Assembly: GCA_017394765.1 (NCBI GenBank)
Contig: JAFPXF010000007.1
Span: 54,981-118,980, forward strand
DNA length: 64,000 bases
Reading direction: 5' to 3'
DNA from: Bacteroidales bacterium
Lineage (GTDB): Bacteria; Bacteroidota; Bacteroidia; Bacteroidales; WCHB1-69
The translations under genes were made by a program, and so were the position numbers. The notes beneath the pieces were generated by a model that was not told where the DNA came from, ran no database searches, and saw nothing but the letters and a program-made list of their open reading frames with translations. Position 1 is the first letter of the stretch; every line of letters begins with the position of its first letter. Positions 14,441 to 36,015 of this stretch are shown here, piece by piece.

Positions 14441-17266
14441 TTATCTCTTGATACAGCGGATGCTGAAGCCGAGGCCCTTGTCATAGTTCATGATGAGCAT
14501 TTCGGGGCAGACGTGCGTGATTTCGCTGCAGACGCCCTTCGTGACATCGGATGTGGTGGTGCTGGTCCAGAAATCGGTCTGGCCGAGCAGGTTCATATAT
14601 TGGCTTGTGCTGCCGTCATAGTAGCCGGCGCCCTTGGCTTTGAAGCCGCTGCCGGGATCGTTGCCAGCATGGCCGGGCAGCCAGGTGGTCACATCGGGAG
14701 ACTTGACATTGGGGAGAGAGCCGGCAATGTTTCTCATCGTGAGGTAGTCGGCTTCGGTCGGGATAGCCCAGCCCTCGGGACATGCACCCTGCACGAATGG
14801 GCCAACGGGGCTGTTGGTCGTGGTGGGCGTGGCACTGTTGTTGCCCTCGGGCACGTTCATGGCGGAATACCAGCTGTAGAGACGGCCGAACTTGTTCAGG
14901 TTTGCGGTCTCGTCAGGATAATCGGTGCTGTTGTAGATGTTGGCCACAGCGATAGAGTTGCCGTTGGAGTACTTGGTGTTGCGCAGGTTCTCAGTGGTCC
15001 AGCACTCGCAGCCGATACGGACGGACTGGTAGGTGTAGCCGTCAATGGTAGCGGTCGGGCAGTCGGGATAGACCACGGTGATGGTCTGCGGACGTTGCAC
15101 GGAGTTGCCGCAAGGATCGGAGATGGTCCAGGTTATGTTGTAGGTGCCGGGCTCAAGACGGGTGGGCAGAGCGGTGTGCGTCAGTTCGAGCGCGCCACTG
15201 TACTCGGGGATGTCGATGGTCACTGTCGGCTCGGGGAACGTGTATGCCGTGTCGCAGGCGCCGAAGTAGAGGGTTACGTTGACCTCCGTCGGGGCGATGG
15301 TGATGTTGGCTGCATCGCTGGTCGTGATGTCGGGTCTGGTCAGCGTGAGCTGCTTGTGCTCGCTCTCATGGCCGCACTTGTCAACCACCCAGTAGTTCAC
15401 GGTCGTCTCGGTCGCTGTGATGGGCGTGTTGGCGGCAGGGTTTTGAACAACCGTCAGGTCGTCGTTCGAGGTGCAGTTGTCGCCGGTGCCGGTGGCAGCC
15501 TTGACTGCTTCGGAGAGGTCAGGAACCAGGTAGTTGCAGGTTGACGGATCCACGGCAGCAGGTGCTGCGGTGATGGTGCCCACGGTGGGGTTCACATCGT
15601 CGCTTACGGTGAAGCTGCCCGGCTTGGAATCGCTGGTGCAGCCGTTGTTGTCGGTGACGGTCAGGGAGTAGTTGTAGGTGTTGCCGCAATCGTTGGCGGA
15701 CGGTACGATAGTGCCGGTCTCGCTGCCGGCTGCGCCGGTCCAGTTGTAGGTGGTGATGATGGCGTCGCCGCCCGCTGTGGCGTCCGCTACGATGCTATAG
15801 CTGCTCTGGTTGGGGCAGAGGTTCGTGGGAGCCGTGAGGCTGTTCACCACAGGACGGTTGTAAGCATGAATTGTATATATATTATTAGAAGGCACACCGC
15901 AAGTGGTGGTGTAGTTGTACACGAAGCGCACATAGACGTCTTGTGTGATATTGTTCACCGTGAAGGGGGTTACGGAGGTGACATCGGTCCAGTTGACCCT
16001 GTCGGTGGACTGTTGCCAGGTGATGTTGCCGGAGTTGCTGGCAATGAGGTTGACGCTCACATCGCTGTTCTTGCAGACGTTCTTGACGGTCTTGTTCTCA
16101 TTGTCGGTCAGGGTGCCGGGGTTGACATCACTCGGGCGGGTCACGGTGACAGCATCGGTATAGACGGTGCTGCAGCCCGTCACCTGGTAGCCTCTGCGGT
16201 AGGTGCCGGAGGTGGTAGCCGTGTAGGTTGCGCCATTGGCACCGGAGATGGTGGTACCGTTCTTTTGCCAGATATAGGTGCCGGTCACTTCGCTGTGGGC
16301 GGCTGTGACGTTGTTGAGGACCACGGCAGTGTCGGTACTGCTGCAGGTCCATGTGCCGGCTGAGATGGCACCGGCGGTGAGGTTGTTGCAGTTGCTGGCC
16401 GTGTAATAGATGAACACGGCACCGGGGGCACCGTCGCCACCGTTGCTGGCGACAAAGCCACCGCCAATAATTCCAGCTCCTGTTGCGCAACCGGAGCCGC
16501 CGCCGCCATAGTTGGAACCGTTTTTACCATTACGGCCTCCAGTATGGCTTACCGCACCTTCCGCACCATTGCCGGCATGGGCAAGGGAAGTGGTGCCGCC
16601 AGCACCAGGTTTATATCCAGAGATGGGACCGCCATTAGCACCGTTTCCGCCGTTGCCGCCGCCAGCGGCGCCGCCGCCGCCAGCACCGCACCAAGCGCCG
16701 TCGGAGCCTGTGCCGCCGTTGCCGCCAGGATGTTTGTCATCACCAATGCAAGTGCCTCTGGGTCCATTGAGTTGTCCACCTACTCCAGCTACGTCGCTGC
16801 CATCGCCAACGTCACCGGCTCCGGTGGCCCTAATCAGTATGGTACTACCGCGGGAAACCCAACTGTTTCCGCCCCAGCCAGGGTTTGTTGCCGATTTGCT
16901 ACAGTCGCCGCTGCCCTTGGAACCTGCATGGATGTTGAGGGTTTCACCAGGTGTGACAGCGATGGTACTTTTCACCCATGCGCCACCGCCACCGCCAGGA
17001 TAGCCGTGTGTGGCTTGCCATCCCGAAAATTGGCATGCGGCGCCGCCGCCGCCACCGCCGCCGATGGCGATGATGGTGATTTCGTTGACACCGGCGGGAA
17101 CTTGCCAAGAGTAGTCTTGGCCGTCGCTATCCCATGTCGTGAAATTGCTTGTCGTGAACGCCACCTCTGTAGGTGGTGTTTGTGCAGAGAGCTGGTTCAT
17201 GAACAGACCCAGCACGAAAATTGCAGTGAGAAGCAAGCCTCCCACGCATAATTGCAACTTTTTCAT
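14441..17266 (-). CDS. Glycine-rich FISUMP surface protein 1
   Basis: A 941-residue secreted protein with signal peptide MKKLQLCVGGLLLTAIFVLG ending near LSAQ. After it comes a glycine-rich domain (about 30-300) with GGGGGGGAACQF, GGGGGAWVK and VTPGETLNIHAGSKGSG. Next are several Ig- or HYR-like beta domains (about 300-740). The C-terminal FISUMP domain (Fibrobacter paralogous major domain, TIGR02145 type; about 750-941) has VRIGCECWTTENLRNTKYS, FGRLYSWYSAMN, CPEGWAIPT and LGFSIRCIKR. Such proteins are surface or secreted adhesin-like factors of unknown activity. The start at 17266 is set by the signal peptide. It is a paralogue of 31900-36015; both are flanked by the same repeats. The protein ends in FISUMP without a recognisable type IX sorting domain. 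Confidence 0.88.
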   Translation of the reverse strand: MKKLQLCVGGLLLTAIFVLGLFMNQLSAQTPPTEVAFTTSNFTTWDSDGQDYSWQVPAGVNEITIIAIGGGGGGGAACQFSGWQATHGYPGGGGGAWVKSTIAVTPGETLNIHAGSKGSGDCSKSATNPGWGGNSWVSRGSTILIRATGAGDVGDGSDVAGVGGQLNGPRGTCIGDDKHPGGNGGTGSDGAWCGAGGGGAAGGGNGGNGANGGPISGYKPGAGGTTSLAHAGNGAEGAVSHTGGRNGKNGSNYGGGGSGCATGAGIIGGGFVASNGGDGAPGAVFIYYTASNCNNLTAGAISAGTWTCSSTDTAVVLNNVTAAHSEVTGTYIWQKNGTTISGANGATYTATTSGTYRRGYQVTGCSTVYTDAVTVTRPSDVNPGTLTDNENKTVKNVCKNSDVSVNLIASNSGNITWQQSTDRVNWTDVTSVTPFTVNNITQDVYVRFVYNYTTTCGVPSNNIYTIHAYNRPVVNSLTAPTNLCPNQSSYSIVADATAGGDAIITTYNWTGAAGSETGTIVPSANDCGNTYNYSLTVTDNNGCTSDSKPGSFTVSDDVNPTVGTITAAPAAVDPSTCNYLVPDLSEAVKAATGTGDNCTSNDDLTVVQNPAANTPITATETTVNYWVVDKCGHESEHKQLTLTRPDITTSDAANITIAPTEVNVTLYFGACDTAYTFPEPTVTIDIPEYSGALELTHTALPTRLEPGTYNITWTISDPCGNSVQRPQTITVVYPDCPTATIDGYTYQSVRIGCECWTTENLRNTKYSNGNSIAVANIYNSTDYPDETANLNKFGRLYSWYSAMNVPEGNNSATPTTTNSPVGPFVQGACPEGWAIPTEADYLTMRNIAGSLPNVKSPDVTTWLPGHAGNDPGSGFKAKGAGYYDGSTSQYMNLLGQTDFWTSTTTSDVTKGVCSEITHVCPEMLIMNYDKGLGFSIRCIKR

Positions 17267-17373
17267 AATTTCTTTTTTTAGTTTGTAATATTGTTTTATC
17301 ATATAATTATCAATAAGTCAATACTTTATTTTTCTATTCCCTTACAATTCCTTATATGTATTCATCAAACTTG

Positions 17374-22079: not shown

Positions 22080-23558
22080 ATGATGAAACCGTTAACCCAA
22101 TTGCTGAAGAGCATCAAGCCGCAAGAGATTCTTGGCGACGTGGAGTGCAATGTCACCGACATCGTGTTCGATTCCCGCCGGGTGGCCGCCATGGTGGCGG
22201 AGGGCGGCCTGCCGCTCTATGTGGCGCAACGCGGCACGCAGACGGACGGTCACCGCTTCATCCCGCAGGTCGTGGAGGCCGGCGGTCGGGTGATTGTCTG
22301 CGAGGAGCTTCCGGAAGAACCGCATCCCGGCGTCACGTATGTGAAGGTGCGCGACAGCTCCGTGGCATTGGGCTGCTTAGCCAGCGCGTTTCACGGCAAC
22401 CCCAGCCGCAAGCTGAAGCTGGTCGGCATCACAGGCACCAACGGCAAGACCACCACCGTGACGCTGCTGCACCGTCTCTTCACGCTGCTCGGCCACAAGT
22501 GCGGCTTGCTCTCCACCATCGTCAACAAGATCGGCGAGGAGGAAGTGCCCGCCACGCATACCACGCCCGACGCGGTGGAACTCAACACACTGCTGGCCCG
22601 CATGGTCGAGGCCGGCTGTGAGTACTGCTTCATGGAGGTCAGCTCCCACGCCGTCTGCCAGCACCGCATCTCCGGACTGCATTTCACTGGCGCCATCTTC
22701 AGCAACATCACCCACGACCATCTCGACTTCCACAAGACTTTCCAGAACTATATCAGGGCCAAGAAGGCTTTCTTCGACGGACTCTCCAAGAATGCGTTCG
22801 CCCTCACCAACGCCGATGACAAGAACGGCATGGTGATGGTGCAGAACTGCAAGGCGCGGGTCTGTACGTACAGCCTGCTCACCGCCGCCACCTTCAAGGG
22901 CGTGGTTTTGGACGATTCTTTCAAGGGCTTGCAGATGCGTGTCAACGGCAGGGAGGTCTTCTTCAAGCTCTGCGGCCGCTTCAATGCCTACAACCTGCTG
23001 GCCATCTACGGCGCGGCGGTGCTTTTGGGCGCCGATGAGGACGAGGTGTTGACACGAATGAGCCTGTTGGAGAGCGCCGCCGGACGGTTCCAGCTGCTGT
23101 ACCGCCAGGACGGGGCCACCGCCATCGTGGATTACGCCCACACTCCGGATGCTTTGCAGAATGTGCTGGAGACCATCCGCGAGACCATCGGCAACCGTGC
23201 CGAGGTGATCACTGTGGTGGGGTGCGGCGGCGACCGCGACCGGACCAAACGCCCCGAGATGGCTGCCATCGCCTGCAAATACAGCAGCCGTGTGGTCTTC
23301 ACCTCCGACAACCCTCGCACGGAAAATCCCGGGGCGATTCTTGACGAGATGCTCGCCGGGGTGCCCGAGAACAAAAAGAAGAACATCCTGGTCATCGAAA
23401 ACCGCCGTGAGGCCATCAAGGCCGCCTGCATGATGCTGCCCAAAGACGGTGTGCTGCTCGTCGCCGGAAAAGGCCATGAGAACTATCAGGAAATCAACCA
23501 CGTCAAGCACCATTTCGATGACAGCGAAGAGGTGCGGGACTGCTTCGCGATGAATTAA
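22080..23558 (+). CDS. murE: UDP-MurNAc-tripeptide synthetase (meso-DAP adding)
   Basis: MurE adds the third residue to UDP-MurNAc-L-Ala-D-Glu. The 492-residue protein has all three Mur ligase domains: an N-terminal UDP-binding domain, the ATP site GITGTNGKTTTVTLL (about 115-129), the VSSHAVCQHRISGLHF motif, and the C-terminal domain with DYAHTPDALQNVL. The specificity loop reads TSDNPRTENP; the DNPR motif is the known sign of meso-diaminopimelate use. Two adjacent ATGs (22080 and 22083) could start it. This intact three-domain ligase contrasts with the murD fragment two genes downstream. Confidence 0.95.
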   Translation: MMKPLTQLLKSIKPQEILGDVECNVTDIVFDSRRVAAMVAEGGLPLYVAQRGTQTDGHRFIPQVVEAGGRVIVCEELPEEPHPGVTYVKVRDSSVALGCLASAFHGNPSRKLKLVGITGTNGKTTTVTLLHRLFTLLGHKCGLLSTIVNKIGEEEVPATHTTPDAVELNTLLARMVEAGCEYCFMEVSSHAVCQHRISGLHFTGAIFSNITHDHLDFHKTFQNYIRAKKAFFDGLSKNAFALTNADDKNGMVMVQNCKARVCTYSLLTAATFKGVVLDDSFKGLQMRVNGREVFFKLCGRFNAYNLLAIYGAAVLLGADEDEVLTRMSLLESAAGRFQLLYRQDGATAIVDYAHTPDALQNVLETIRETIGNRAEVITVVGCGGDRDRTKRPEMAAIACKYSSRVVFTSDNPRTENPGAILDEMLAGVPENKKKNILVIENRREAIKAACMMLPKDGVLLVAGKGHENYQEINHVKHHFDDSEEVRDCFAMN

Positions 23559-23603: not shown

Positions 23604-24860
23604 ATGTTATACACCCTTTTTGAATGGCTGCACAAGTTGGGAATGCCCGGATCGGGTATTTTCCAATACATCTCTTTCCGGTCTGCCATGGCTTTCGTGG
23701 TGGCTTTGATCATATCCATCTTCTTTGGAAAGCCTTTCATCCGCTTGCTGCGCAGAAAGCAGATCGGCGAGTCGGTGCGCGACTTGGGACTGGCGGGGCA
23801 GGCTGAGAAGGCCGGTACCCCGACCATGGGCGGACTGATCATCATCGCGGCCATCCTGATTCCGGCGTTGCTCTTTTGCCAGCTGAACAACGTCTATGTG
23901 CGGCTGATGCTCTTTACCACTGTGTGGCTCGGCGGCTTGGGCTTTGCCGACGATTATATCAAGGTCTTCAAGAAAAACAAGGAGGGACTTTCCCCGCGCA
24001 AGAAGCTGATTGGGCAGATTGTCCTCGGCGTGATGGTCGGTGCGGTGATGTATTTCCATCCCGATGCCGTGATTTGCGAGAAGAACGCCACTGCAAACGT
24101 GATGACGCCGCTCGAATCCGCCTTGCAGGTGGAAAACCAAGCCAACGCCGAGACCCCCAGGATTTTCGGCGAAGCGCACCACTCCACCAAGACGACCATC
24201 CCGTTCTTCAAGAACAATGAGGCTGACTACAGCTCCCTCACCCGTTGGATGGGCGACAAGACCGGCAAGTGGTCGTTCCTGCTCTTCATCCCCATCATTG
24301 TCTTCATCATCGCGGCGGTCTCCAACGGAGCCAACCTTACCGATGGGTTGGACGGGCTCGCGACGGGTACCACCTCCGTCATCGCGGTGGGTATCGCCAT
24401 ACTGGCATACGTGTCTGGCAATGTGGTGTTTGCCAATTATTTGGATATAATGTATATACCCAATATCGGGGAGTTGGTGATCTTTGTGTCCGGCGTGATT
24501 GGCGCCTGTCTGGGCTTTTACTGGTGGAATTGTTATCCCGCACAGATCTTCATGGGCGACACCGGCAGTCTGATGCTGGGCGGTATCGTGGCTGTCTCTT
24601 GCATCATCGTCCGCAAGGAGCTGCTCATCCCGATACTCTGCGGCGTCTATCTGGCCCAGTCCGTTTCTGTCATCATGCAGGTTTCCTATTTCAAATACAC
24701 CAAGAAGAAATATGGCGAGGGTCGCCGCATCTTCCTGATGGCGCCCCTGCATCATCATTTCCAAAAGAAGGGTGTGCACGAATCCAAAATCGTGCAGCAT
24801 TTCATCATCATCAGCCTTCTCCTGGCTGTCCTCACCGTTGTCACACTCAAGATCAGATAA
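23604..24860 (+). CDS. mraY: Phospho-MurNAc-pentapeptide translocase
   Basis: MraY transfers phospho-MurNAc-pentapeptide to undecaprenyl phosphate, making lipid I. The 418-residue polytopic protein has the family motifs AGTPTMGGLIIIAAI (about 70), GGLGFADDYIKVFKKN (the Asp-Asp pair, about 110-125), NLTDGLDGLATG and FMGDTGSLMLGG, and the H-rich cytosolic loop PLHHHFQKKGVHE near the C-terminus. An insertion of about 60 residues between helices (about 150-210), with many charged residues, is typical of Bacteroidota MraY. Confidence 0.96.
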   Translation: MLYTLFEWLHKLGMPGSGIFQYISFRSAMAFVVALIISIFFGKPFIRLLRRKQIGESVRDLGLAGQAEKAGTPTMGGLIIIAAILIPALLFCQLNNVYVRLMLFTTVWLGGLGFADDYIKVFKKNKEGLSPRKKLIGQIVLGVMVGAVMYFHPDAVICEKNATANVMTPLESALQVENQANAETPRIFGEAHHSTKTTIPFFKNNEADYSSLTRWMGDKTGKWSFLLFIPIIVFIIAAVSNGANLTDGLDGLATGTTSVIAVGIAILAYVSGNVVFANYLDIMYIPNIGELVIFVSGVIGACLGFYWWNCYPAQIFMGDTGSLMLGGIVAVSCIIVRKELLIPILCGVYLAQSVSVIMQVSYFKYTKKKYGEGRRIFLMAPLHHHFQKKGVHESKIVQHFIIISLLLAVLTVVTLKIR

Positions 24861-24918: not shown

Positions 24919-25476
24919 ATGCCGACCCAAAAAACCAACAGTTTCAGCCTCTTCGAGAGAGAAAGAGAAAAAGACAATCCCATGGTGGCCACCTTGGCCA
25001 GCCGTCTGGTCAACATCCGCAAGAAAAACATCGCCGCCTCGTTGTCCGACTTTGAGGGCAGCTCGCACAAGTTAGAGCGCGTCAAGACCATCAACACCAT
25101 TGATTTTATCGACGATTCCCGTTCCACGAACGTCAATTCGGTCTGGTATGCTTTGCAGAGCATGACCAAGCCGACAGTGTGGATCACCAGCATCGACAAT
25201 GTGGAGAAAATATCCGAGGATCTGGTGGAACAGGTGCGCCAGCATGTGAAAGCCATCGTGTTGCAGAGTGTTTACAACACGGATGTCTATGATTTCCTCT
25301 CCTCGTTGGATATTCCCGTCTATGTGGAGATGAGCTGTGAAGATGCCGTGCGCCAAGCCTTCTATGCTTGCGACAGGAACTATGCGGTTCTCTTCTCCCC
25401 GGGCGTGAACGGTACTCCGCAGATGACATACCGTGAGCGTGGCGACAAGTTCCAGGAGGCAGTAGGACAACTATAA
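24919..25476 (+). CDS. Free-standing MurD C-terminal ligase domain (truncated MurD)
   Basis: A 185-residue protein in the murD place between mraY and ftsW. After a 20-residue charged leader (SLFEREREKDNP), residues 21-185 match only the end of MurD: ATLASRLVNIRKKNIAASLS, DFEGSSHKLERV, the C-terminal substrate motif DFIDDSRSTNVNSVWYALQS (normally INDSKATN), KPTVWI, VKAIVLQ, and VLFSPGVNGTPQMTYRERGDKF. The UDP-binding domain and the central ATP-binding domain with its GTNGKTT loop are absent. The usual GGVDKG loop is replaced by TSIDNVEK. The 58 bp back to mraY hold no remnant of the missing part. The frame is open, with codon use like its neighbours, so it does not look like fresh decay. It cannot be a ligase alone; it may be a regulatory or scaffold part, or a relic. 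A complete murD is not in this window. Confidence 0.8.
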   Translation: MPTQKTNSFSLFEREREKDNPMVATLASRLVNIRKKNIAASLSDFEGSSHKLERVKTINTIDFIDDSRSTNVNSVWYALQSMTKPTVWITSIDNVEKISEDLVEQVRQHVKAIVLQSVYNTDVYDFLSSLDIPVYVEMSCEDAVRQAFYACDRNYAVLFSPGVNGTPQMTYRERGDKFQEAVGQL

Positions 25477-25488
25477 ACCGTTTTATCC

Positions 25489-26661
25489 ATGAGCCTTGGC
25501 ATTATAGAGAGAATCCGGCGTTTTCGTGGCGACAAGATCATCCTGATTTTGGTGGTGGGGTTGTCGCTGATATCCATCCTTCTGGTGTATAGCACGGAGG
25601 GCAAACGGGTGGTGACGCACATCGTCCACCTGCTGTTCTGCTATGCGGGGTTGGGGATTTTCTATTTCATCAACTACAAGAAACTGGTGACCAACTTCTC
25701 TTTGTTAGGGCTGTTGTTGGCTATTGTCTTGTTGGTTTGGACATTGGGCTCCTCGGCAGTGCGCGGCGTGACGCTCTTTGGTTTCGACCTGCAAACGTTC
25801 TATTTTATCGGTTTTTTGATTATTGTGTTTATTTCCAACTATATAGGTCGCCGTTTTGATAATGGGCAGACCGAGCTTGACAACAAGGAGATGGTGTATG
25901 CGTCCATCGTGTTGCTCGGTTTCTGCGGTGGCATCGCACTTCTGAATATGTCCACGGCCATTATTTTGTTCCTCACGGGGTTGGCTATGTTTTTTGTGGG
26001 CAACTTCAAATGGCGCGGCATCTTTTCGCTGGTCGGGCTTGTGGGCGGATTGGTGCTGATTGTCACGTTGTTGGTGGCGACGGGCAAGTTGGACAATGTG
26101 GGACGTATCTCCACGTTTGTCAACCGTTGGGAATACTATTTCACCAAGGACAACCAGGACGGCTATGGCGACCAGATGATCCTGTCGCGGGCCGCCATCG
26201 CGCGCTCCGGCCTCCATCCCGCCGGGCCGGGCCGCGGCGTCATCAAGTACCGTCTTCCCGAAAACTCCACCGACTATGCCTTTGCCTCCCTCTTCGAGGA
26301 GACGGGCCTCGTTGTCGGATTGATTGTCATCTTCATCTACATGACCATTTTTTACCGATCGTGGCACATATCGCGCAATTCAAAGTCGGCAATGGGCTCG
26401 CTGCTGGCCTTTGGCATAGGTTTTTGGATGACCTGCCAGGCATTTGTGCACATCGGGGTGAACTGTGAGCTGCTGCCCGCCACTGGCCAGACGCTGCCCT
26501 TCATCAGCACGGGCGGCGCCTCTCTCTTCGTTTCGGGATGCGCCGTGGGCATGCTCTTGAATGTGAGCAAGATGAATGTGATAGATAGCCAGAAACCTGA
26601 TCCGCATTCCATGTTTATCAGAGGGGAATCACGCCAATCGGGCATGCCAGCGCAGATGTAG
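25489..26661 (+). CDS. ftsW: Septal peptidoglycan glycosyltransferase FtsW
   Basis: FtsW is the SEDS-family glycan polymerase of the divisome, working with FtsI. The 390-residue protein has about ten membrane segments. The large extracytoplasmic loop reads GPGRGVIKYRLPENSTDYAFASLFEE, which is the SEDS region with the essential Asp in PE..TDY (about 255-265). The last motif is ELLPATGQTLPFISTGGASL. It starts 12 bp after the murD fragment. It is the last classical dcw gene here; murG, murC, ftsQ, ftsA and ftsZ do not follow. Confidence 0.95.
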   Translation: MSLGIIERIRRFRGDKIILILVVGLSLISILLVYSTEGKRVVTHIVHLLFCYAGLGIFYFINYKKLVTNFSLLGLLLAIVLLVWTLGSSAVRGVTLFGFDLQTFYFIGFLIIVFISNYIGRRFDNGQTELDNKEMVYASIVLLGFCGGIALLNMSTAIILFLTGLAMFFVGNFKWRGIFSLVGLVGGLVLIVTLLVATGKLDNVGRISTFVNRWEYYFTKDNQDGYGDQMILSRAAIARSGLHPAGPGRGVIKYRLPENSTDYAFASLFEETGLVVGLIVIFIYMTIFYRSWHISRNSKSAMGSLLAFGIGFWMTCQAFVHIGVNCELLPATGQTLPFISTGGASLFVSGCAVGMLLNVSKMNVIDSQKPDPHSMFIRGESRQSGMPAQM

Positions 26662-26694: not shown

Positions 26695-26702
26695 TACCTT
26701 TG
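26695..26702 (+). promoter_or_regulatory. -7 element of the SGNH-SGNH-MBOAT unit
   Basis: TACCTTTG, a good match to TAnnTTTG, 18 bases before the ATG at 26721. It separates this three-gene unit from the dcw cluster, though read-through from ftsW (33 bp upstream) remains possible. Confidence 0.55.
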
Positions 26703-26720
26703 CGCCCTCAAAAAAATGGC

Positions 26721-28154
26721 ATGAAACCCTATCAGATACTGATTTTCATCGTTCTAATAATCTGTGCATTAGGTGCTGTGGTCTTCTTTTTTCCGAAAGA
26801 CGGCGTGCGCATTGGAAAGGAAGAACTGCACTTTCCGACGATGGAACAGGTGTTGGTGGGCCCCGACGAGCCCGAGTTGAAAATCCAGGAGAAGAAGGCC
26901 GATTCCGTGGCGCAAAAGAGGCTCAACGACATCAAGGACACACTTCGCCACTACCAGACTGCATTGACCGAGCAGGCAGGGCAATTCTACCTTCCCGACA
27001 ACGACGTCACCTTCTTCGACCGACTGTTTGGGCGCATGGAGCGGGCGCGTGGCAACCAGGAGGTGGTCCGTGTGCTGCACTACGGCGACTCGCAGATCGA
27101 GATGGACCGTATCTCCTGCAATTTGCGCAGCTATTTCCAGCGGCTTTTCGGCGGCGGCGGTCCCGGACTGGTGCCGGTTATCCAGACTATCCCCTCCTTT
27201 GCTGTCAGCCAGTCGGCCAGCGGTGCGCTGACGCTCTACTCGTCCTACGGCGAGGGCTCGCGCACGAAAGGCAACTACGGACTCATGTGCAAGTGCTACC
27301 GTCTTACGGGTGGCGCCACCTTCACGGCCTACGCCTCCCGCCACAAAGACACCGACCCGCGTGTGAAGCGCTTCTCCAACATCACCCTGCTCTACAACGA
27401 CCGTGACGGCCACTTCAAAGCCACCCTCCGCGACCGCATGGGCTCCTATAAAGATACATGCTCGCTTGGTCTTATGGGCATTCATGCATGCCATTGGCAG
27501 CTGGATTCGGCCACCACTTCCGTGCAGATCTCCATGCAGGGCAACGCCGACCTCTACGGCATCATGTTGGATGACGGATATGGTGTCGCGGTGGACAACA
27601 TCCCCCTGCGGGGCTCCTCCGGCGAGCAGTTCACCCTCATCACCGACACCCTGTTGCGCACCAACTACCGGCAGGCCAATGTGGGGATGATCATCCTCCA
27701 GTTCGGCGGCAACTCCATGCCCGTGATTTACAATGACAAGTCGCTTGAAAGGTATTGTGTGAGCATTGAGCGGCAAATCCGCCGCATCCGCAACAGCTGT
27801 CCGTCGGCGACGCTGCTGTTCATCGGCCCTTCTGACATGAGCACGCGGCGTGGCGGTGTGTTGCAGACCTACCCCATGCTGCCCCGTGTGGTGGACAGCC
27901 TGCGCACCATCGCCTTGCGCAACCATGCCGCCTATTGGGACATCTACGAGTACATGGGCGGCCACAATTCCATGATTGCCTGGCAACGCAACGGACTGGC
28001 CGGCCCCGATTATGTACACTTCACCCCGGCGGGGGCACGGCGTGTGGGCAAGGCCCTGGCCGACAACTTCGCCACCCTCTACGAGCTGTACCGCACCCGC
28101 AAGAATATTCCCCAAAACCAATTCGACACGCTATGGAACACCTCCGCCCGATAG
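26721..28154 (+). CDS. Membrane-anchored SGNH/GDSL hydrolase
   Basis: A 477-residue protein with an N-terminal membrane anchor (YQILIFIVLIICALGAVVFFF) and a periplasmic SGNH hydrolase fold. Block I is VLHYGDSQIEMDR with the nucleophile Ser (about residue 124). Block III is LQFGGNSMPV with the Asn, and block V is DYVHFTPAGARR with the Asp and His. SGNH proteins next to an MBOAT protein commonly move acetyl groups onto glycans (as AlgX/AlgJ or PatB do). The start at 26721 is chosen because the longer frame (26700) would begin inside the -7 element. Its 3' end overlaps the next gene by 22 bp. Confidence 0.82.
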   Translation: MKPYQILIFIVLIICALGAVVFFFPKDGVRIGKEELHFPTMEQVLVGPDEPELKIQEKKADSVAQKRLNDIKDTLRHYQTALTEQAGQFYLPDNDVTFFDRLFGRMERARGNQEVVRVLHYGDSQIEMDRISCNLRSYFQRLFGGGGPGLVPVIQTIPSFAVSQSASGALTLYSSYGEGSRTKGNYGLMCKCYRLTGGATFTAYASRHKDTDPRVKRFSNITLLYNDRDGHFKATLRDRMGSYKDTCSLGLMGIHACHWQLDSATTSVQISMQGNADLYGIMLDDGYGVAVDNIPLRGSSGEQFTLITDTLLRTNYRQANVGMIILQFGGNSMPVIYNDKSLERYCVSIERQIRRIRNSCPSATLLFIGPSDMSTRRGGVLQTYPMLPRVVDSLRTIALRNHAAYWDIYEYMGGHNSMIAWQRNGLAGPDYVHFTPAGARRVGKALADNFATLYELYRTRKNIPQNQFDTLWNTSAR

Positions 28155-29479
28155 TCTTGCTCTTTCTGCTGGTGCTCGCAGCGTGTGCCACATCCGCCCA
28201 GGTGGTCGTCGAGTCCGACTCCATTCCGGAGATTCCCACCTTCACCGACACGACCGGCATCGACTTGATAACTGTGCCGGACACCGTGGTGGTGGACACG
28301 GTTGTCGCCGAGGACCTTTACGAGCCTGGCGAGACAAGCATCCAGTATGGCATCGACACACTCTATTGGGGCGGCGACTCCACCACGCTGAAACATTTCT
28401 TCGACAAGTGGCAGCGCCTCATGGCCACCCGGCAGGGCAACCTGCACATTGTCCACATCGGTGGCTCGCATGTACAGGCCGGCACCATGACGCACCGCAT
28501 CCGCAAGCATCTGCTCGATGAGTACGGCGGCCCGCCTGCCGCACGAGGGTTCATTTTCCCCTATTCTACCGCCAACAAGTGCAACAATCCCGTTGACTAC
28601 CGCGTCTCGAAGTTGAAAACCTTCAGCCTTATACGCAATGTCTATAAGGACTACACCTTCCCCCTCGGGGCCGCCGGCATCGCTGTATGGAACAGCGACA
28701 CCCTCAACTCCATCACGGTGAAGATGAATGCGGAAGGCTATGACTTCATGGCGGACACCATCATCCTGCTGGGCGACGCCCACGGCTGGCCTATCGACCC
28801 CATCCTGAAGGAGGATACCATCTATCATTTTCCTGACAGTATTGATTACCAGAACGGACGTTACCATTTTTATTTCGACCATCCCGTGCGCGACTTCACG
28901 CTCTTTCTCCCGTGCAGCAAGGGCGACACTTTTGTGGTCAACGGCATTCTGCTGCGCAACGGACGCCCGGGTGTCACGGTCTCTTCCATCGGCGTGAACG
29001 GTGCCCAGACGGGCTCCTATCTGCGTTGCCGGAACTTCACCCGTGACATGGAACTGCTCCGCCCCGACCTCGTCATCTTCGGCATCGGTGTCAACGATGC
29101 CTACGGTAGTTCGTTCGACTCTGTGGCGTTCAAGAACAACTATTTGGAGCTGGTTCGCCGCATCCGCAGCGTGAACCCCGACTGCGCTTTCATCTTCTTC
29201 TCCAACAATGATACCTGGAAGAAGGGACGGAAGGGCAAATATTATGTCAACCCCACGGGACCAGCCGTGGCCGAGGTGATGCACCGTCTCGCCGACCTCA
29301 CCGGCGGTGCTGTGTGGGACCAGTTCGCCATCATGGGCGGCCTCAAGTCCATGGAGACTTGGCGCAAAAAGGGCTTGGCCCAGAAGGACCGCGTCCATTT
29401 CACCGCCGCCGGATACAACCTTATCGGAGACCTTTTCTTCGAGGCCTTCATTCGTGAAACCAAACCCAAGACGCGATGA
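28133..29479 (+). CDS. SGNH hydrolase-like lipoprotein
   Basis: A 448-residue protein with a signal peptide and lipobox (VLLFLLVLAACATSAQ, lipid Cys about residue 18), so a lipoprotein. The SGNH blocks are VHIGGSHVQAG (Gly in place of the usual Asp before Ser), FGIGVNDAYG with the Asn, and DRVHFTAAGYNL with Asp and His. The ATG at 28133 lies inside the end of the previous gene; a longer frame upstream is out-of-frame reading of that gene. The stop overlaps the MBOAT start by 4 bp (ATGA), so the three genes are translationally coupled. It likely works in the same surface acetylation pathway. Confidence 0.8.
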   Translation: MEHLRPIVLLFLLVLAACATSAQVVVESDSIPEIPTFTDTTGIDLITVPDTVVVDTVVAEDLYEPGETSIQYGIDTLYWGGDSTTLKHFFDKWQRLMATRQGNLHIVHIGGSHVQAGTMTHRIRKHLLDEYGGPPAARGFIFPYSTANKCNNPVDYRVSKLKTFSLIRNVYKDYTFPLGAAGIAVWNSDTLNSITVKMNAEGYDFMADTIILLGDAHGWPIDPILKEDTIYHFPDSIDYQNGRYHFYFDHPVRDFTLFLPCSKGDTFVVNGILLRNGRPGVTVSSIGVNGAQTGSYLRCRNFTRDMELLRPDLVIFGIGVNDAYGSSFDSVAFKNNYLELVRRIRSVNPDCAFIFFSNNDTWKKGRKGKYYVNPTGPAVAEVMHRLADLTGGAVWDQFAIMGGLKSMETWRKKGLAQKDRVHFTAAGYNLIGDLFFEAFIRETKPKTR

Positions 29480-31335
29480 ACCTCGACAATCTCCGCATAT
29501 TCTTCACCAACATCTTTTCCTTCAACGAGGAGTACCCGCTGCTGTTCACGCAGTTCAACTTCTGGGCTTTCTTCGCCTTTGTCTTCGCCTTCTTTACAAT
29601 TTTCCATAAAAAAAGACTGCTGCGCAACAGCTTTCTCTTTTTCGCGAGCCTCTTTTTCTACTACAAAACCTCCGGGCTCTTTGTCCTGATCCTCATCTTC
29701 GACATGTTTCTCGGATATTTCCTCGGCATCCTCATGGACCGCTCCAAGCGGCAGGGATTCCGGAAATTCCATGCGATTGTCGGAGTGGCGGTCAACTTGG
29801 CGGTGCTCTGCTATTTCAAGTACGCCTACTTCTTCACAGATGCCTATAACACGATGGTGGGTAGCGACCACGAGGTGATCAACTGGCTGGCGCAGTGGAC
29901 CAACGATTTGTCTGGAAAGGACTATTTCGATGCGTCCAAAATCCTGCTTCCGGTGGGCATCTCATTCTACACCTTCCAGAACATCAGTTATCTGGTGGAT
30001 GTTTACAAGCAAAAAATCCGGCATGTCACCAACATGCTGGACTTCGGCTTCTATGTCAGCTTCTTCCCCCAGTTGGTGGCGGGTCCCATCGTGCGTGCCG
30101 ACCAGTTCGTGCCGCAGCTTTACAAGCCCTTCTTCCTCAGCCGCCGCCAGTTCGGCATCGCGGTTTTCTGGATCCTCAACGGCTTGGCCAAGAAGCTGAT
30201 CATGAGCGACTACTTGGCGGTCAACTTCGTGGACCGCGTCTTCAACAACCCTTCGCTGTTCACGCCGTTCGAGAACCTGTCGGCACTGTTCATCTACTCT
30301 TTGCAGGTCTATGCCGACTTCTCCGGCTATACCGACATTGCCATCGGCGTGGCCATGCTGATGGGCTTCTATCTGCCCAAGAACTTCAATTCGCCTTACA
30401 AGGCCGATTCGCCGTCCAACTTTTGGAAGCGGTGGCACATTTCGCTTTCCAAGTGGCTGCAAGATTACCTGTATATCCCACTCGGCGGCAACCGCAACGC
30501 CACATTCGGCACCTATTTCTGCATCCTCTTCGTCGCCGCGGTCATAGTGATGCTGACCAAGAGCGCGGTCATCGCCAGCATTCTTGTGGCGTTGGCGGTC
30601 ATCCTGCTGATTGTCTCGTTGGCTTCCAGGTCCGCGCGGCTGAAAATCAGCACCAACATTAACATGATGAACACGATGCTGTTGGGTGGTCTGTGGCACG
30701 GTGCCTCGTGGAATTTCATGATCTGGGGCGGGCTGAACGGCATCGGCATCTTGGGGTTCAAGGTATGGAGACATCTCAAACAATGGATCCGCAGTGTGGT
30801 GTCGGGCTGTGTGTTTGTCATCTTCTTTGTGTGCAATTACTTGTGGCCGGCTCCCGTGCTGGTGATTTTCACCGTCTGGTCAGGCATCTTTTTTGTGGGG
30901 ACGCTTGTCCGCTGCCTCTTTTCCGCCATTTTCCCGAACCGTGACATCGCATGGCTTAACAACAGCTGGAACATCCTGATGACCTTCGTTTTCATCTCTT
31001 TCACGCGACTTTTCTTCCGCTCTGGCTCGAATTTGGATCCTGCTGTGGCCAACGAGACGGCGTGGAACACGGCGCGCGCAATGGTCAACAGCATTGGTGG
31101 GGCATGGAACACGGCGGTGATTCCCGACATCCTGTCCAACTATTGGCGTGTTTTTGCGCTCTTCGCCGCCGGCATGGTCATCCACTGGCTTCCCGACAGA
31201 TGGAAAAGATGGTATCGCGTCAACTTCGCCTTGATGCCGGTTTGGCTCATGGGCATCGTGGTGGTGGTCATCGTGTTCGTGCTCTACCAGTTCGTCACCG
31301 CCGACCTGCAGCCGTTTATCTATTTCCAGTTTTAG
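29476..31335 (+). CDS. MBOAT family O-acyltransferase
   Basis: A 619-residue polytopic protein of the membrane-bound O-acyltransferase family (AlgI/DltB/PatA group), which moves acetyl groups from the cytoplasm to the outside for transfer to a glycan. Features include NLAVLCYFKYAYFF, GISFYTFQNISYLVDVYK, PQLVAGPIVRADQF, FCGYTDIAIG-like DFSGYTDIAIGVAM, NFWKRWHISLSKWLQDYLYI and the catalytic histidine in LLGGLWHGASWNFMIWGG. With two SGNH partners just upstream it forms a complete O-acetylation unit. Its position directly behind ftsW suggests peptidoglycan as a possible acceptor, but a surface polysaccharide is equally possible. Confidence 0.9.
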   Translation: MNLDNLRIFFTNIFSFNEEYPLLFTQFNFWAFFAFVFAFFTIFHKKRLLRNSFLFFASLFFYYKTSGLFVLILIFDMFLGYFLGILMDRSKRQGFRKFHAIVGVAVNLAVLCYFKYAYFFTDAYNTMVGSDHEVINWLAQWTNDLSGKDYFDASKILLPVGISFYTFQNISYLVDVYKQKIRHVTNMLDFGFYVSFFPQLVAGPIVRADQFVPQLYKPFFLSRRQFGIAVFWILNGLAKKLIMSDYLAVNFVDRVFNNPSLFTPFENLSALFIYSLQVYADFSGYTDIAIGVAMLMGFYLPKNFNSPYKADSPSNFWKRWHISLSKWLQDYLYIPLGGNRNATFGTYFCILFVAAVIVMLTKSAVIASILVALAVILLIVSLASRSARLKISTNINMMNTMLLGGLWHGASWNFMIWGGLNGIGILGFKVWRHLKQWIRSVVSGCVFVIFFVCNYLWPAPVLVIFTVWSGIFFVGTLVRCLFSAIFPNRDIAWLNNSWNILMTFVFISFTRLFFRSGSNLDPAVANETAWNTARAMVNSIGGAWNTAVIPDILSNYWRVFALFAAGMVIHWLPDRWKRWYRVNFALMPVWLMGIVVVVIVFVLYQFVTADLQPFIYFQF

Positions 31336-31818: not shown

Positions 31819-31899
31819 CATGGTTTTGAATTAGGGTAATATATATATTAGCAATAGTTACATAAAAATCTGATTATTAAATTGTTAAATATAATGATT

Positions 31900-34800
31900 A
31901 TGAAAAAATTTACTTTAAGCACGCTGTTTTTGACAGCAATTTTGTCGTTGGGTCTGCTTGTGAACCAACTCTCCGCACAGACGGAGCCGTTCACAACAAA
32001 TGAATACACCCAAGCAAGTTCTGACGGAACGACCTATACTTGGACCGTCCCGGCTGGAGTTAACACCATCAACATTATCGCCATTGGCGGTGGAGGCGGT
32101 GGCGGTGCCGTTTGCCCTACTTTTTCGAGCTCGTTTGTTAGAGGCTGCGCTGGCGGCGGCGGCGGCGCCTACGTCAAAGTGGACAATTATACCGTAACTC
32201 CGGGTGAGGTTTTGACTATCCACGTCGGTTCCAGAGGCAGCGGACACCAAAGCTGCAGCAGCACCTACAGAGGTTGGGGCGGCCACAGTTGGGTAAAGCA
32301 TGCCGACGGCACCGTTATCGTTCTGGCCAGAGGTGCCAGCGATGTGGCAGATGGCGCTGTCAATGAACCTGGCACAGGCGGTCAGGCGTCTGCTTGTACT
32401 GCTCCTGCTGGGAGTGTGGTACTCAGCGGCGGCAATGGCGGTAGAGGATCCACGGGTGCTTGGTGCGGATCCGGCGGCGGCGGCGCAGCCGGCGGCGGAA
32501 ACGGCGGAAACGGTGCAAGTGCTGACTTCTGGGGAATAATACCAACTGCCACTCATCCTGGTGCTGCAGGCACCAATTCTATCGCCTACGCAGGTAATGG
32601 TGGTGCGGGTGTTGTCAGTCATACTGGTGGCACGAATGGCAAAGGCGGTAGTAACTACGGCGGCGGCGGTAGCGGTGGTTCCTCTGGAATTGGCTGGGGT
32701 GATGCCGACGGCGGTGATGGCGGTCCCGGTTACGTGCTCATCACCTATTCCGCAACTTGCGATGCTACGCCGGGTTCAATTAGTGCTGAGACCTGGGTGT
32801 GCACCTCTACTGACACTGCTATCGTGATTAATAGTACTGCCGCTGCCACAAGCACGGCCACTGGTGGTTCCTACATGTGGCAATCCTCCACTAACGGTTC
32901 TTCCTGGAGCAACATCTCTGGCGCAAACGCTGCTACATATACAGCACACGCCACTGGTTATTATCGCAGAGGCTATGTGGTCGGTACTTGCGATCCCGTT
33001 ATCACATCCGCTGTCTATGTGACCCGTCCGAGCGACATCGATCCGGGCACGATCAAGGATAATGAAGAACATACTGAAAAGGCGATCTGTGCAGGTGATG
33101 CCATCAACATTACCCTCAAAAAAACATATTCAGGAAGTGTTACATGGCAAACATGCCCCACTAATTCTACCAACGATGCGGATTGGACAACTGTTTCAAC
33201 AGGTAGCACATATTCAATTACCAGTGTCTCTGCCACCACATACGTGCGCTACATTGCAAACTATACGGCCACTTGCGGCATTCCTTCTAATAACGTTTAT
33301 GTGATTACGGTCAATCAACGTCCCGTGGTTAGCAGTATTGAGCCTCCTACGGAACTTTGTCCGGGCGAGTCCTATTATGAACTGATTGCGAACGTCTCTT
33401 CCAGCGCAGCCATCACCACCTACACGTGGACAGGCGCCACCGCTACCGGTACGGGTACAACAGCGCAGGTTGTCCCTTCTAGCTATCAGTGTGGACACAC
33501 TTACAATTATTCCCTTAAGGTGACGGATGAGAACGGTTGCGAAAGTGAGGAGGTGTCTGGTAACTTCACCACCACCACCCCGGCTTTGACCATCGGTACT
33601 ATCACCGATCTGACTGCGTTCTCTGATGGTGCCTGTGGCTTCAGCATTCCCACCGAAGAAGCCCTGACAGCGGCTGTCAATGCGGCCCTCACCTCCTCTT
33701 GTGGAAACACAGTGATGTTGAGCAATATCTCCCCCGCGGCTGAAAGTCCAATTACTGGTCCTACCGCGGTGGAGGCCACGGTTACCGACAGGTGCGGCAA
33801 CACCCTTACCCAGCCTGTCACCATCAACATTGTGATACCGGCCGCTCCCTCTGCGGTAAACATTACCGCTGATGATGTGTATCTCTGCCCGGGTGAGACC
33901 ACCACGCTGACCGTAGATGTTACAGCGGAGGAGCCCACATACACATGGGATCCCTCATCATTGGGCTCGGCTGCCACGGCTACTACTATCGCCTACACGG
34001 CTGAGGATGTGGTCGCACACGCGGACAACTACTCTGTTGTGGTGACTGACAAATATGGTTGCCCCAGCTCTGGCAATATCGACATCTTTACCACACCGAA
34101 GGCATACGTTGCCGACAAGGAATACACCATCTGCGCCGACAATGCCGCCACGATGTCCCTTGCTACTGGCGACAAGGTGCCGGCAGGAAACAGCACAATA
34201 GATCCCTTTACCTTCAACTACACCACCACCTACACTTGGACCATCGTTTCCAATACCGGTGTGGGCGGTGCCTCCGCAGGCACGAACCAAGCCGCCTTCA
34301 CCACGGGCACGCTGACCAACACCACCTTGGAGATGCAAACGGTGGTTTACTCAGTGGTTCCCACCACGGTCACAACAGTTGAAGGCACGGAAGTCACCAG
34401 CTGTACGGGTGACGCTTTCACGGTGACGGTCAAAGTGAGACCGAAGGTCACCAACGACGGGGCCATCACCAACTTCGACGATGACGATGTCATCATCACC
34501 CTCTGGTATGGTGCTTGCGACACGCTGTACTATGTGGAGACCCCGACCTACGACAACAACATCCTTCCCGCAGACCTTGCCGTTTATCTGACCAACGACA
34601 AGGGCGGCAATGTCAACGCCGGCACCCTGCTGGGTCGTATCGCTCCGGGCGAATATACCATCAGATGGACCTTCACGGATGAATGCGGTAACAACATCTA
34701 CTTCGACAAGAAGTATATCGTACGCTATCCGAACTGCGGCGATGCGGATCCCAACTACACGGAGCCGTTCTACGCTGTCGATGCCGATGGTGTCTCATAC

Positions 34801-36015
34801 CACACCGTGCGTATCGGCTGCGAGTGCTGGACTGCCGAGAACCTGCGCAGCACCAAGTATTCCGACAACACTGATATTCCTTCATCCAACGTCTATCATA
34901 GCGACGACTATCCCAACGATGCCGAGAACGAGGCCAAGTTCGGCCGTCTCTACAGCTGGTATTCCGCCATGCATGTGACGGAAGGCGATGACACCGCCGA
35001 GCCTTCCACCTCCAACAGCCCCATCGGACCGTACGTGCAGGGTGTCTGCCCCGCCGGCTGGGCTGTGCCTACCGTTGGCATCTACACTTCCATGAAGAAC
35101 ATCTCCGGCGCCATCGAGAATGTCAAGTCATCCGACCAGACCACCTGGCTGCCCGGTCTCGCCGGCATTGCCCCCGGCAGCGGCTTCAACGCCAAGGGCG
35201 CAGGCTACTACGAGAGCTACATCGACCGTTACATGAACCTGCTTGGCCAGACGGACTTCTGGACCAGCACCATCGGACCGACGGTACAGAAGGGCACCTG
35301 TGTCGAAATCACGCACGTCTGCCCCGAGATGCTCATCAAGGACTATATGAAGGGCCTTGGCTTCAGCATCCGCTGCGTGAAGAGAGACGAGAAAGACTTC
35401 ACTTGCGGCACTTCCAAGATGAGAGCCGCCAGTGGCAACGAGTATGAGACTGTGCAAATCGGCACCCAGTGCTGGTCTAAGAGCAACCTGCACGAAAGAG
35501 TTGGAAATGAGGGTGACAGTCACGGTAATCCCTCGAGCGACATAGCCCCTTATTACTATATTAATTCAGGACAAGATCCCGTAATCTATGGCTATTATTA
35601 TAATTGGGAAGCAGCCCAAATAGCCTGTCCGGACGGCTGGCATCTGCCATCTCAAGAAGAAGTACGTCAATTGGTCTCTTACATGTCCACTGTACCTGAA
35701 TATCAGTGTGACGGTGAGTTTTCAGCAAAATCATTAGCTTACACTTCGGGCTGGCCTGTCGATAATGACAACAGCTGTACTGTGGGTAGTGACCAAAGCA
35801 CGAATAATGCTTCAGGATTTTCAGCTATATGTACGGGTAACTATACAGGAAACATTAATCAATACCTGGCTGTTTTCTGGAGCGCAACTTCTTCTACCTT
35901 TAGTAACGGAGATTTATCAGCTTGTGATTACCATCTTTATTACAATAATACTTCTCTGTTGTTTTCTTATGTTTCCAGATGGCATAATAGTTCTGTCCGC
36001 TGTCTGAAAGATTAA
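31900..36015 (+). CDS. Glycine-rich FISUMP surface protein 2, with two FISUMP domains
   Basis: A 1371-residue secreted protein with signal peptide MKKFTLSTLFLTAILSLGLL ending near LSAQ. Order of parts: a glycine-rich domain (about 40-290; GGGGGGGAVCPTF, GGGGGAYVK, VTPGEVLTIHVGSRGSG), several Ig- or PKD-like beta domains (about 290-950), a first FISUMP domain (about 960-1160; VRIGCECWTAENLRSTKYS, FGRLYSWYSAMH, LGFSIRCVKR), and a second FISUMP domain (about 1165-1371; VQIGTQCWSKSNL, CPDGWHLPSQEEV, SSVRCLKD). The first FISUMP domain is nearly the same as that of the paralogue at 14441-17266. The second differs and its DNA from about 35500 on is much more AT-rich than the rest of the gene, a sign of separate origin. 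ATG 31900 fits the signal peptide; ATG 31894 is an alternative. Confidence 0.88.
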   Translation: MKKFTLSTLFLTAILSLGLLVNQLSAQTEPFTTNEYTQASSDGTTYTWTVPAGVNTINIIAIGGGGGGGAVCPTFSSSFVRGCAGGGGGAYVKVDNYTVTPGEVLTIHVGSRGSGHQSCSSTYRGWGGHSWVKHADGTVIVLARGASDVADGAVNEPGTGGQASACTAPAGSVVLSGGNGGRGSTGAWCGSGGGGAAGGGNGGNGASADFWGIIPTATHPGAAGTNSIAYAGNGGAGVVSHTGGTNGKGGSNYGGGGSGGSSGIGWGDADGGDGGPGYVLITYSATCDATPGSISAETWVCTSTDTAIVINSTAAATSTATGGSYMWQSSTNGSSWSNISGANAATYTAHATGYYRRGYVVGTCDPVITSAVYVTRPSDIDPGTIKDNEEHTEKAICAGDAINITLKKTYSGSVTWQTCPTNSTNDADWTTVSTGSTYSITSVSATTYVRYIANYTATCGIPSNNVYVITVNQRPVVSSIEPPTELCPGESYYELIANVSSSAAITTYTWTGATATGTGTTAQVVPSSYQCGHTYNYSLKVTDENGCESEEVSGNFTTTTPALTIGTITDLTAFSDGACGFSIPTEEALTAAVNAALTSSCGNTVMLSNISPAAESPITGPTAVEATVTDRCGNTLTQPVTINIVIPAAPSAVNITADDVYLCPGETTTLTVDVTAEEPTYTWDPSSLGSAATATTIAYTAEDVVAHADNYSVVVTDKYGCPSSGNIDIFTTPKAYVADKEYTICADNAATMSLATGDKVPAGNSTIDPFTFNYTTTYTWTIVSNTGVGGASAGTNQAAFTTGTLTNTTLEMQTVVYSVVPTTVTTVEGTEVTSCTGDAFTVTVKVRPKVTNDGAITNFDDDDVIITLWYGACDTLYYVETPTYDNNILPADLAVYLTNDKGGNVNAGTLLGRIAPGEYTIRWTFTDECGNNIYFDKKYIVRYPNCGDADPNYTEPFYAVDADGVSYHTVRIGCECWTAENLRSTKYSDNTDIPSSNVYHSDDYPNDAENEAKFGRLYSWYSAMHVTEGDDTAEPSTSNSPIGPYVQGVCPAGWAVPTVGIYTSMKNISGAIENVKSSDQTTWLPGLAGIAPGSGFNAKGAGYYESYIDRYMNLLGQTDFWTSTIGPTVQKGTCVEITHVCPEMLIKDYMKGLGFSIRCVKRDEKDFTCGTSKMRAASGNEYETVQIGTQCWSKSNLHERVGNEGDSHGNPSSDIAPYYYINSGQDPVIYGYYYNWEAAQIACPDGWHLPSQEEVRQLVSYMSTVPEYQCDGEFSAKSLAYTSGWPVDNDNSCTVGSDQSTNNASGFSAICTGNYTGNINQYLAVFWSATSSTFSNGDLSACDYHLYYNNTSLLFSYVSRWHNSSVRCLKD

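Follow-up and report, generated by a model that had tools for sequence, protein, structure and literature searches.

What does the last domain of an essential cell-wall ligase do when it stands alone in the cluster from which the rest of the enzyme has gone? MurD requires all three of its domains. In the window analyzed here (the whole 64,000-nucleotide stretch of Bacteroidales DNA, from contig JAFPXF010000007.1), a short gene between mraY and ftsW encodes the third only, as the original prediction had it from the letters alone. This is confirmed: profile TIGR01087 covers the short protein at profile positions 272 to 440 only, with the UDP-binding and ATP-binding domains absent, and Pfam domains identify both neighbors (Table 1). 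The score (89.6 bits) is below the curated cut-off of 211.95, the ligand motifs of the MurD C-domain (DSKATN, GGxDKG, SPxCASFDLF) are altered or lost, and the structure model matches MurD C-domains, with low confidence at residues 1 to 45. Some annotation sources call the protein a MurD ligase, for which the motifs give no support.

Table 1. Features of the short gene and its neighbors, in window coordinates.
Feature	Coordinates	Strand	Evidence
Gene of 185 aa for a free-standing C-terminal domain of MurD	24919..25476	+	TIGR01087, fold match, dN/dS
Residues 1-45: leader conserved in the genus, followed by the helix that comes before the C-domain in full-length MurD	24919..25053	+	Alignments
Residues 47-185: Mur-ligase C-domain fold	25057..25473	+	VIA-align, model 47-185 on MurD 305-447 of 8dp2
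Residues 65-71: altered DSKATN motif, reads DDSRSTN	25111..25131	+	Alignment; D66 invariant, K68 to R in 96% of genus set
Residues 91-99: GGxDKGNDY loop lost	25189..25215	+	Alignment
Residues 160-169: degenerate SPxCASFDLF loop	25396..25425	+	Alignment
mraY, upstream neighbor	23604..24860	+	Pfam Glycos_transf_4 and MraY_sig1
ftsW, downstream neighbor	25489..26661	+	Pfam FTSW_RODA_SPOVE
murE, complete three-domain Mur ligase for comparison	22080..23558	+	Three Mur ligase Pfam domains

The surroundings of the cluster hold two further observations. Two large predicted proteins flank it on opposite strands (14441-17302, minus; 31882-36015, plus) and look alike by eye, with a Gly-rich start and a C-terminal WTxENLRxTKYS...GRLYSWYSAM. 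Between ftsW and the second of them (26700-31335) lie two lipase genes of GDSL/SGNH type and a gene for an MBOAT acyltransferase, as in the nearest relative; other nearest-genus loci hold different genes downstream of ftsW.

Genome-wide searches were run in the genomes of relatives, of which G001 is nearest to the window and 36 represent the nearest genus. The G001 copy of the short gene is 97% identical to that of the window, and comparison of dcw clusters shows the gene conserved in 33 of the 36 genomes (55 to 97% identity), the other three being without an mraY match as well. It sits between mraY and ftsW in every locus checked, and six nearest-genus loci without murG/murC after ftsW on that strand (by eye) still hold it there. 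The position of its ATG is constant within two residues across 32 rows (window, L001 to L030, and L080), and a database search found 175 relatives within the allowed lengths, 119 of the 120 listed being 165 to 187 aa long. Ratios of nonsynonymous to synonymous change (Nei-Gojobori script, 16 loci) indicate purifying selection: dN/dS was 0.034 between the window and its nearest relative (L061) and 0.016 to 0.064 in the five further close pairs printed, below that of ftsW in each of the six pairs and close to that of mraY. Medians at dS<2, over differing pair sets, were 0.073 for the short gene (25 pairs), 0.157 for ftsW (45 pairs), and 0.077 for mraY (34 pairs). Strong purifying selection on the short gene is well supported.

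What selection has kept was read by aligning 64 full-length C-domains with 32 short copies of the nearest-genus set and 37 from elsewhere. The nearest-genus set is without the HN pair, the GGxDKGNDY loop, and the CASFDLF loop, and in it the Arg of HRLE has become Lys and the Lys of DSKATN has become Arg; the HN and HRLE residues of the MurD C-domain are presumably ligand contacts. Elsewhere the domain is steady, with a common residue at 70% or more in all four alignment groups at D66, N73, W76, P85, W88, I89, K109, V110, K111, G117, A143, V144, A147, L158, P161, F178, V182, L185, and a few more. The ligand-contacting parts of the short domain are gone and its core fold is retained. Loss of the ligand motifs, with strong purifying selection on the remainder, supports the non-ligase role originally proposed. 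A sensor of UDP-MurNAc-L-Ala, also proposed, is unlikely in the nearest genus because the substrate-holding loops are lost there; yet an SPxxASF-type motif persists in 23 of the 37 short copies from beyond the main genus set (14 lack it).

A search for murD in the rest of the relatives' genomes, the check first suggested for this gene, did return a full-length enzyme, but one of MurD2 type accompanied by MurL, an option that the original prediction had not listed. A second full-length MurD over the curated cut-off lies elsewhere in the genome in 34 of the 36 nearest-genus genomes, near fabF- and rnc-like genes in the loci read (names by eye). Nineteen such type-2 proteins were read, the nearest genus supplying 15; the Asp before the catalytic His is Glu and the Lys of DSKATN is Ile in all 19, and the GGxDKG motif reads GGxDRG (Lys to Arg) in 18. 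The Glu and Arg changes fall on the residues that control the use of L- versus D-Glu in Xanthomonas oryzae MurD2 (PMC8788868); by these specificity residues, 19 of the 19 proteins have the Glu and 18 the Arg, and the relatives' type-2 MurD most likely adds L-Glu.

A MurL homologue is present in 32 of the 36 nearest-genus genomes (the four without are 51 to 79% complete), and MurI over cut-off in none of the 36. Among 24 genomes of other families in the same sample, 18 have MurI without MurL, 5 have MurL without MurI, and one, G050, has neither. The best MurL score among relatives (285 bits, E value 5.8e-85) is below the curated cut-off of NF041275, a Xanthomonadales model (700 bits), and the name MurL, putative in Bacteroidales, is given on homology and the absence of MurI. 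Consistent with replacement, MurI over cut-off was found in 0 of the 84 MurL genomes tested out of 95 in the order; weaker matches occur in 16 of the 84, the best at 76 bits (G314) against a cut-off of 146.65. MurL beside MurD2 was not seen in the nearest genus, and the two lie on contigs other than that of the short gene in G001, G005, and G022; they adjoin each other in G038, G040, G047, G048, and G055. Frames of 885 to 949 aa matched both by MurL and by the type-2 MurD C-domain, apparent MurL-MurD2 fusions, were observed in G113:C12, G290:C16, G210:C6, and G138:C329. Outside the order, MurL was matched in 3 of the 296 genomes of a phylum sample, of which one is G001 and the other two are weak partial matches (about 1e-4). 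The window's own genome presumably carries MurD2 and MurL as well.

The same pattern was followed through 294 Bacteroidales genomes, each at least 80% complete, of which 95 have a MurL homologue and 199 do not; a route of MurD2-MurL type would thus extend to about a third of this sample, and if the reading is right, drugs against MurI are expected to miss the MurL-bearing Bacteroidales. Frames of the dcw-type C-domain are on record for all 95 MurL genomes and for 127 of the 199 others; the remaining 72 have no frame on record, and a few short copies may be missed among them. When 40 short frames were examined for mraY, ftsW, and sequence of the middle domain, 35 proved genuine. Those dropped were G087 and G138, which lie at contig ends and contain middle-domain sequence, G237, which has the middle domain but no MurL, and G299 and G215, which lie at contig ends in genomes lacking MurL; G038, G001, G030, and G034 were added to the genuine count. 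The short gene is found in 39 of the 95 MurL genomes, spread over 19 families, versus 1 of the 127 without MurL (G050), an association with a Fisher P value of 4e-16, uncorrected for kinship.

Full-length MurD1 is kept in 50 of the 95 MurL genomes, with motifs that look intact in the copies read, and its catalysis is therefore not dispensable everywhere. These copies have D-Glu-type motifs as far as read, and MurI over cut-off was found in none of those among the 50 genomes that were tested. Six MurL genomes count as neither short nor full: G055 and G160 have no dcw-type mraY match, G188 has a full-type start in a stretch that breaks off, G087 and G138 are the contig-end frames above, and G111, where mraY has moved, no longer has a dcw MurD, so loss of the domain is possible. 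Nine families contain both long and short forms, and the truncation therefore recurred; a tree of FtsW from 106 genomes requires at least 16 changes (by a quick method that left 42 of its 103 inner branches weak), and genus g5 has two genomes of each form. Horizontal spread of a single short gene is not favored, since the nearest C-domain is the full-length one of the same family for G252 (G047), G084 (G187), G107 (G286), and G314 (G148). For G069, G126, and G170, however, the closest C-domain belongs to a full-length copy from a different family, and G040 and G155 pair with one another. Displacement of MurD1, with selection on the short domain, is well supported.

Where the short proteins begin suggests what may have preceded the truncations. 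Outside the main genus set, 25 of 37 short proteins start with an M-x-x-E-x-L-A-like stretch (strict pattern), the stretch that precedes HN in full-length MurD genes; the other 12 fail the strict pattern, among them G107, uncounted, which starts at the second Met of the stretch, and the nearest-genus set has a different leader. Translation starts in Bacteroidota are generally A-rich and not led by a Shine-Dalgarno sequence. The 20 bases upstream of the shared Met in 41 full-length genes of MurL genomes are 46% A; the figure is 32% for other internal Mets and 48% for presumed starts, and Shine-Dalgarno-like letters precede 1 of the 41. Relative to a null model that samples synonymous codons according to the usage of each gene, the internal Met has an excess of 0.96 A letters (P = 3e-5) and RNA less structured by 1.6 kcal/mol (P = 2e-7); of 25 families, 23 show the weaker structure and 20 the A excess. 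Neither signal is present at the internal Met of 21 full-length genes from genomes without MurL (P = 0.56 and 0.34), 4 of which come from families with MurL in other members. Among other sites used as controls, neither the P-loop, HRLE, and NSM nor random positions gave a gain, and DHLD gave weaker RNA structure (P = 0.002) with no A excess. Compared with domains 1 and 2, the C-domain is better conserved in MurL genomes (identity 0.661 versus 0.566) than in the others (0.613 versus 0.572). These signals suggest, without proving, that the internal Met of full-length genes in MurL genomes serves as a translation start. It is possible, short of probable, that murD of MurL-bearing Bacteroidales is a two-product gene, with an A-rich, unstructured internal start giving a C-domain protein with an important noncatalytic role at the MraY/FtsW machinery, and that many lineages independently deleted the enzyme part and retained the embedded protein alone. 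In that case the free-standing gene would lay bare a second, hidden role of a textbook cell-wall enzyme.

One genome separates the domain from the replacement enzymes. G050 (locus L113; 2.1 Mb, 98% complete) has no MurD, MurL, or MurI over cut-off, yet a degenerate C-domain persists between its mraY and ftsW genes. Its other ligases are MurE, MurF-like, FolC-like (MurF and FolC by eye), and a MurC/Mpl-like protein below both the murC and the mpl cut-offs. Its dcw cluster was also seen, by eye, to have no murC after murG and two ftsZ-like genes in a row. G050 speaks against a role tied solely to MurD2 or MurL.

We consider it probable that the short gene is the retained C-domain of the dcw MurD1, kept for a noncatalytic job after MurD2-MurL took over catalysis. 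A MurD2-type ligase encoded elsewhere would add L-Glu to the stem peptide and the MurL homologue would then epimerize the glutamate; with MurD1 catalysis no longer needed, the UDP- and ATP-binding domains would have been deleted and the C-domain kept for its separate task. That task would most likely be as a docking or regulatory piece of a membrane-side assembly with MraY, FtsW, and MurG, any of which may be the docking partner. Of the roles first proposed, a scaffold for MraY/FtsW would be the leading candidate. A role of this kind fits best because the ligand parts are lost, the core is kept, the place between mraY and ftsW is constant, and the domain survives in G050.

Other readings share parts of this evidence. 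The domain might serve MurD2 or MurL as a dedicated subunit or an allosteric partner, for example in passing the UDP-MurNAc-dipeptide from one to the other, which would suit the 39 of 40 short genes of the order sample that lie in MurL genomes and the SPxxASF-type motif kept by many short copies outside the main genus set. This is unlikely, given that the short gene is present in G050, where neither MurL nor MurD2 is matched, that the nearest genus is without the substrate loops, and that the gene keeps its place by mraY and ftsW, with MurD2 and MurL found on different contigs from it (G001, G005, G022). A further step down in probability is that the stretch is kept as DNA or RNA, as a promoter or for translational coupling of ftsW, with the frame incidental: the gene lies directly before ftsW in every locus read, and the A-rich, unstructured stretch of the full-length genes might equally be a transcription signal, but start and fold are conserved and synonymous change far exceeds protein change, as the five further close pairs show.

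Two older proposals fare worse still. A split MurD, with the C-domain acting in trans with a partner of domains 1 and 2, would account for a gene with the third domain only and for the established need for all three; it is very improbable, since 34 of 36 nearest-genus genomes encode, at another place, a complete MurD of a different type and the catalytic loops of the C-domain are gone. The one piece with domains 1 and 2 only among the matches listed (G010, profile positions 1 to 220) is separated by 127 bases from the end of a 4,465-base contig. Scarcely credible is a decaying relic kept by chance or an assembly deletion. The degenerate ligase motifs, and the full murD that occupies the place between mraY and ftsW in other families, speak in favor; the relic is contradicted by strong purifying selection outside the lost ligand motifs, and the deletion by recurrence of the same short gene in many separate assemblies.

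If the preferred reading of a retained noncatalytic domain is right, MurD, a standard antibiotic target, has a separable nonenzyme function that has been excised and kept many times, and structural roles of Mur ligases at the membrane assembly become testable with one small soluble protein.

The openly licensed PMC literature yielded nothing on a free-standing MurD C-domain, nor on MurL/MurD2 in Bacteroidota. The relatives resemble the Xanthomonas MurD2-MurL system (PMC8788868) in both specificity residues, in having a MurL homologue, and in having no MurI over cut-off, and differ in that their MurL scores far below the Xanthomonadales model. The groups named in the available part of that review are Gamma- and Alphaproteobacteria and actinobacteria; Bacteroidota are not among them, and no leftover MurD domain such as the Bacteroidales short gene is mentioned there. 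Mur ligase assemblies on MurG and MreB, in which Thermotoga maritima MurD is reported to bind both proteins, suggest MurD contacts beyond catalysis; there the full enzyme binds, and the part of the source available (PMC6420597) describes no free-standing domain, unlike the case here. MurT, of the MurT-GatD complex, is like the short gene in being Mur-type and outside the MurC-F ladder, but the fold match is weak and the identity just 12%. MurT retains the ATP-binding domain. The closest comparison is MurD itself, from which the short gene differs in being a separate gene of its own, without domains 1 and 2 and with the ligand loops gone, and with whose C-terminal domain it is homologous, sharing the fold and standing at the dcw place that full MurD holds in other families.
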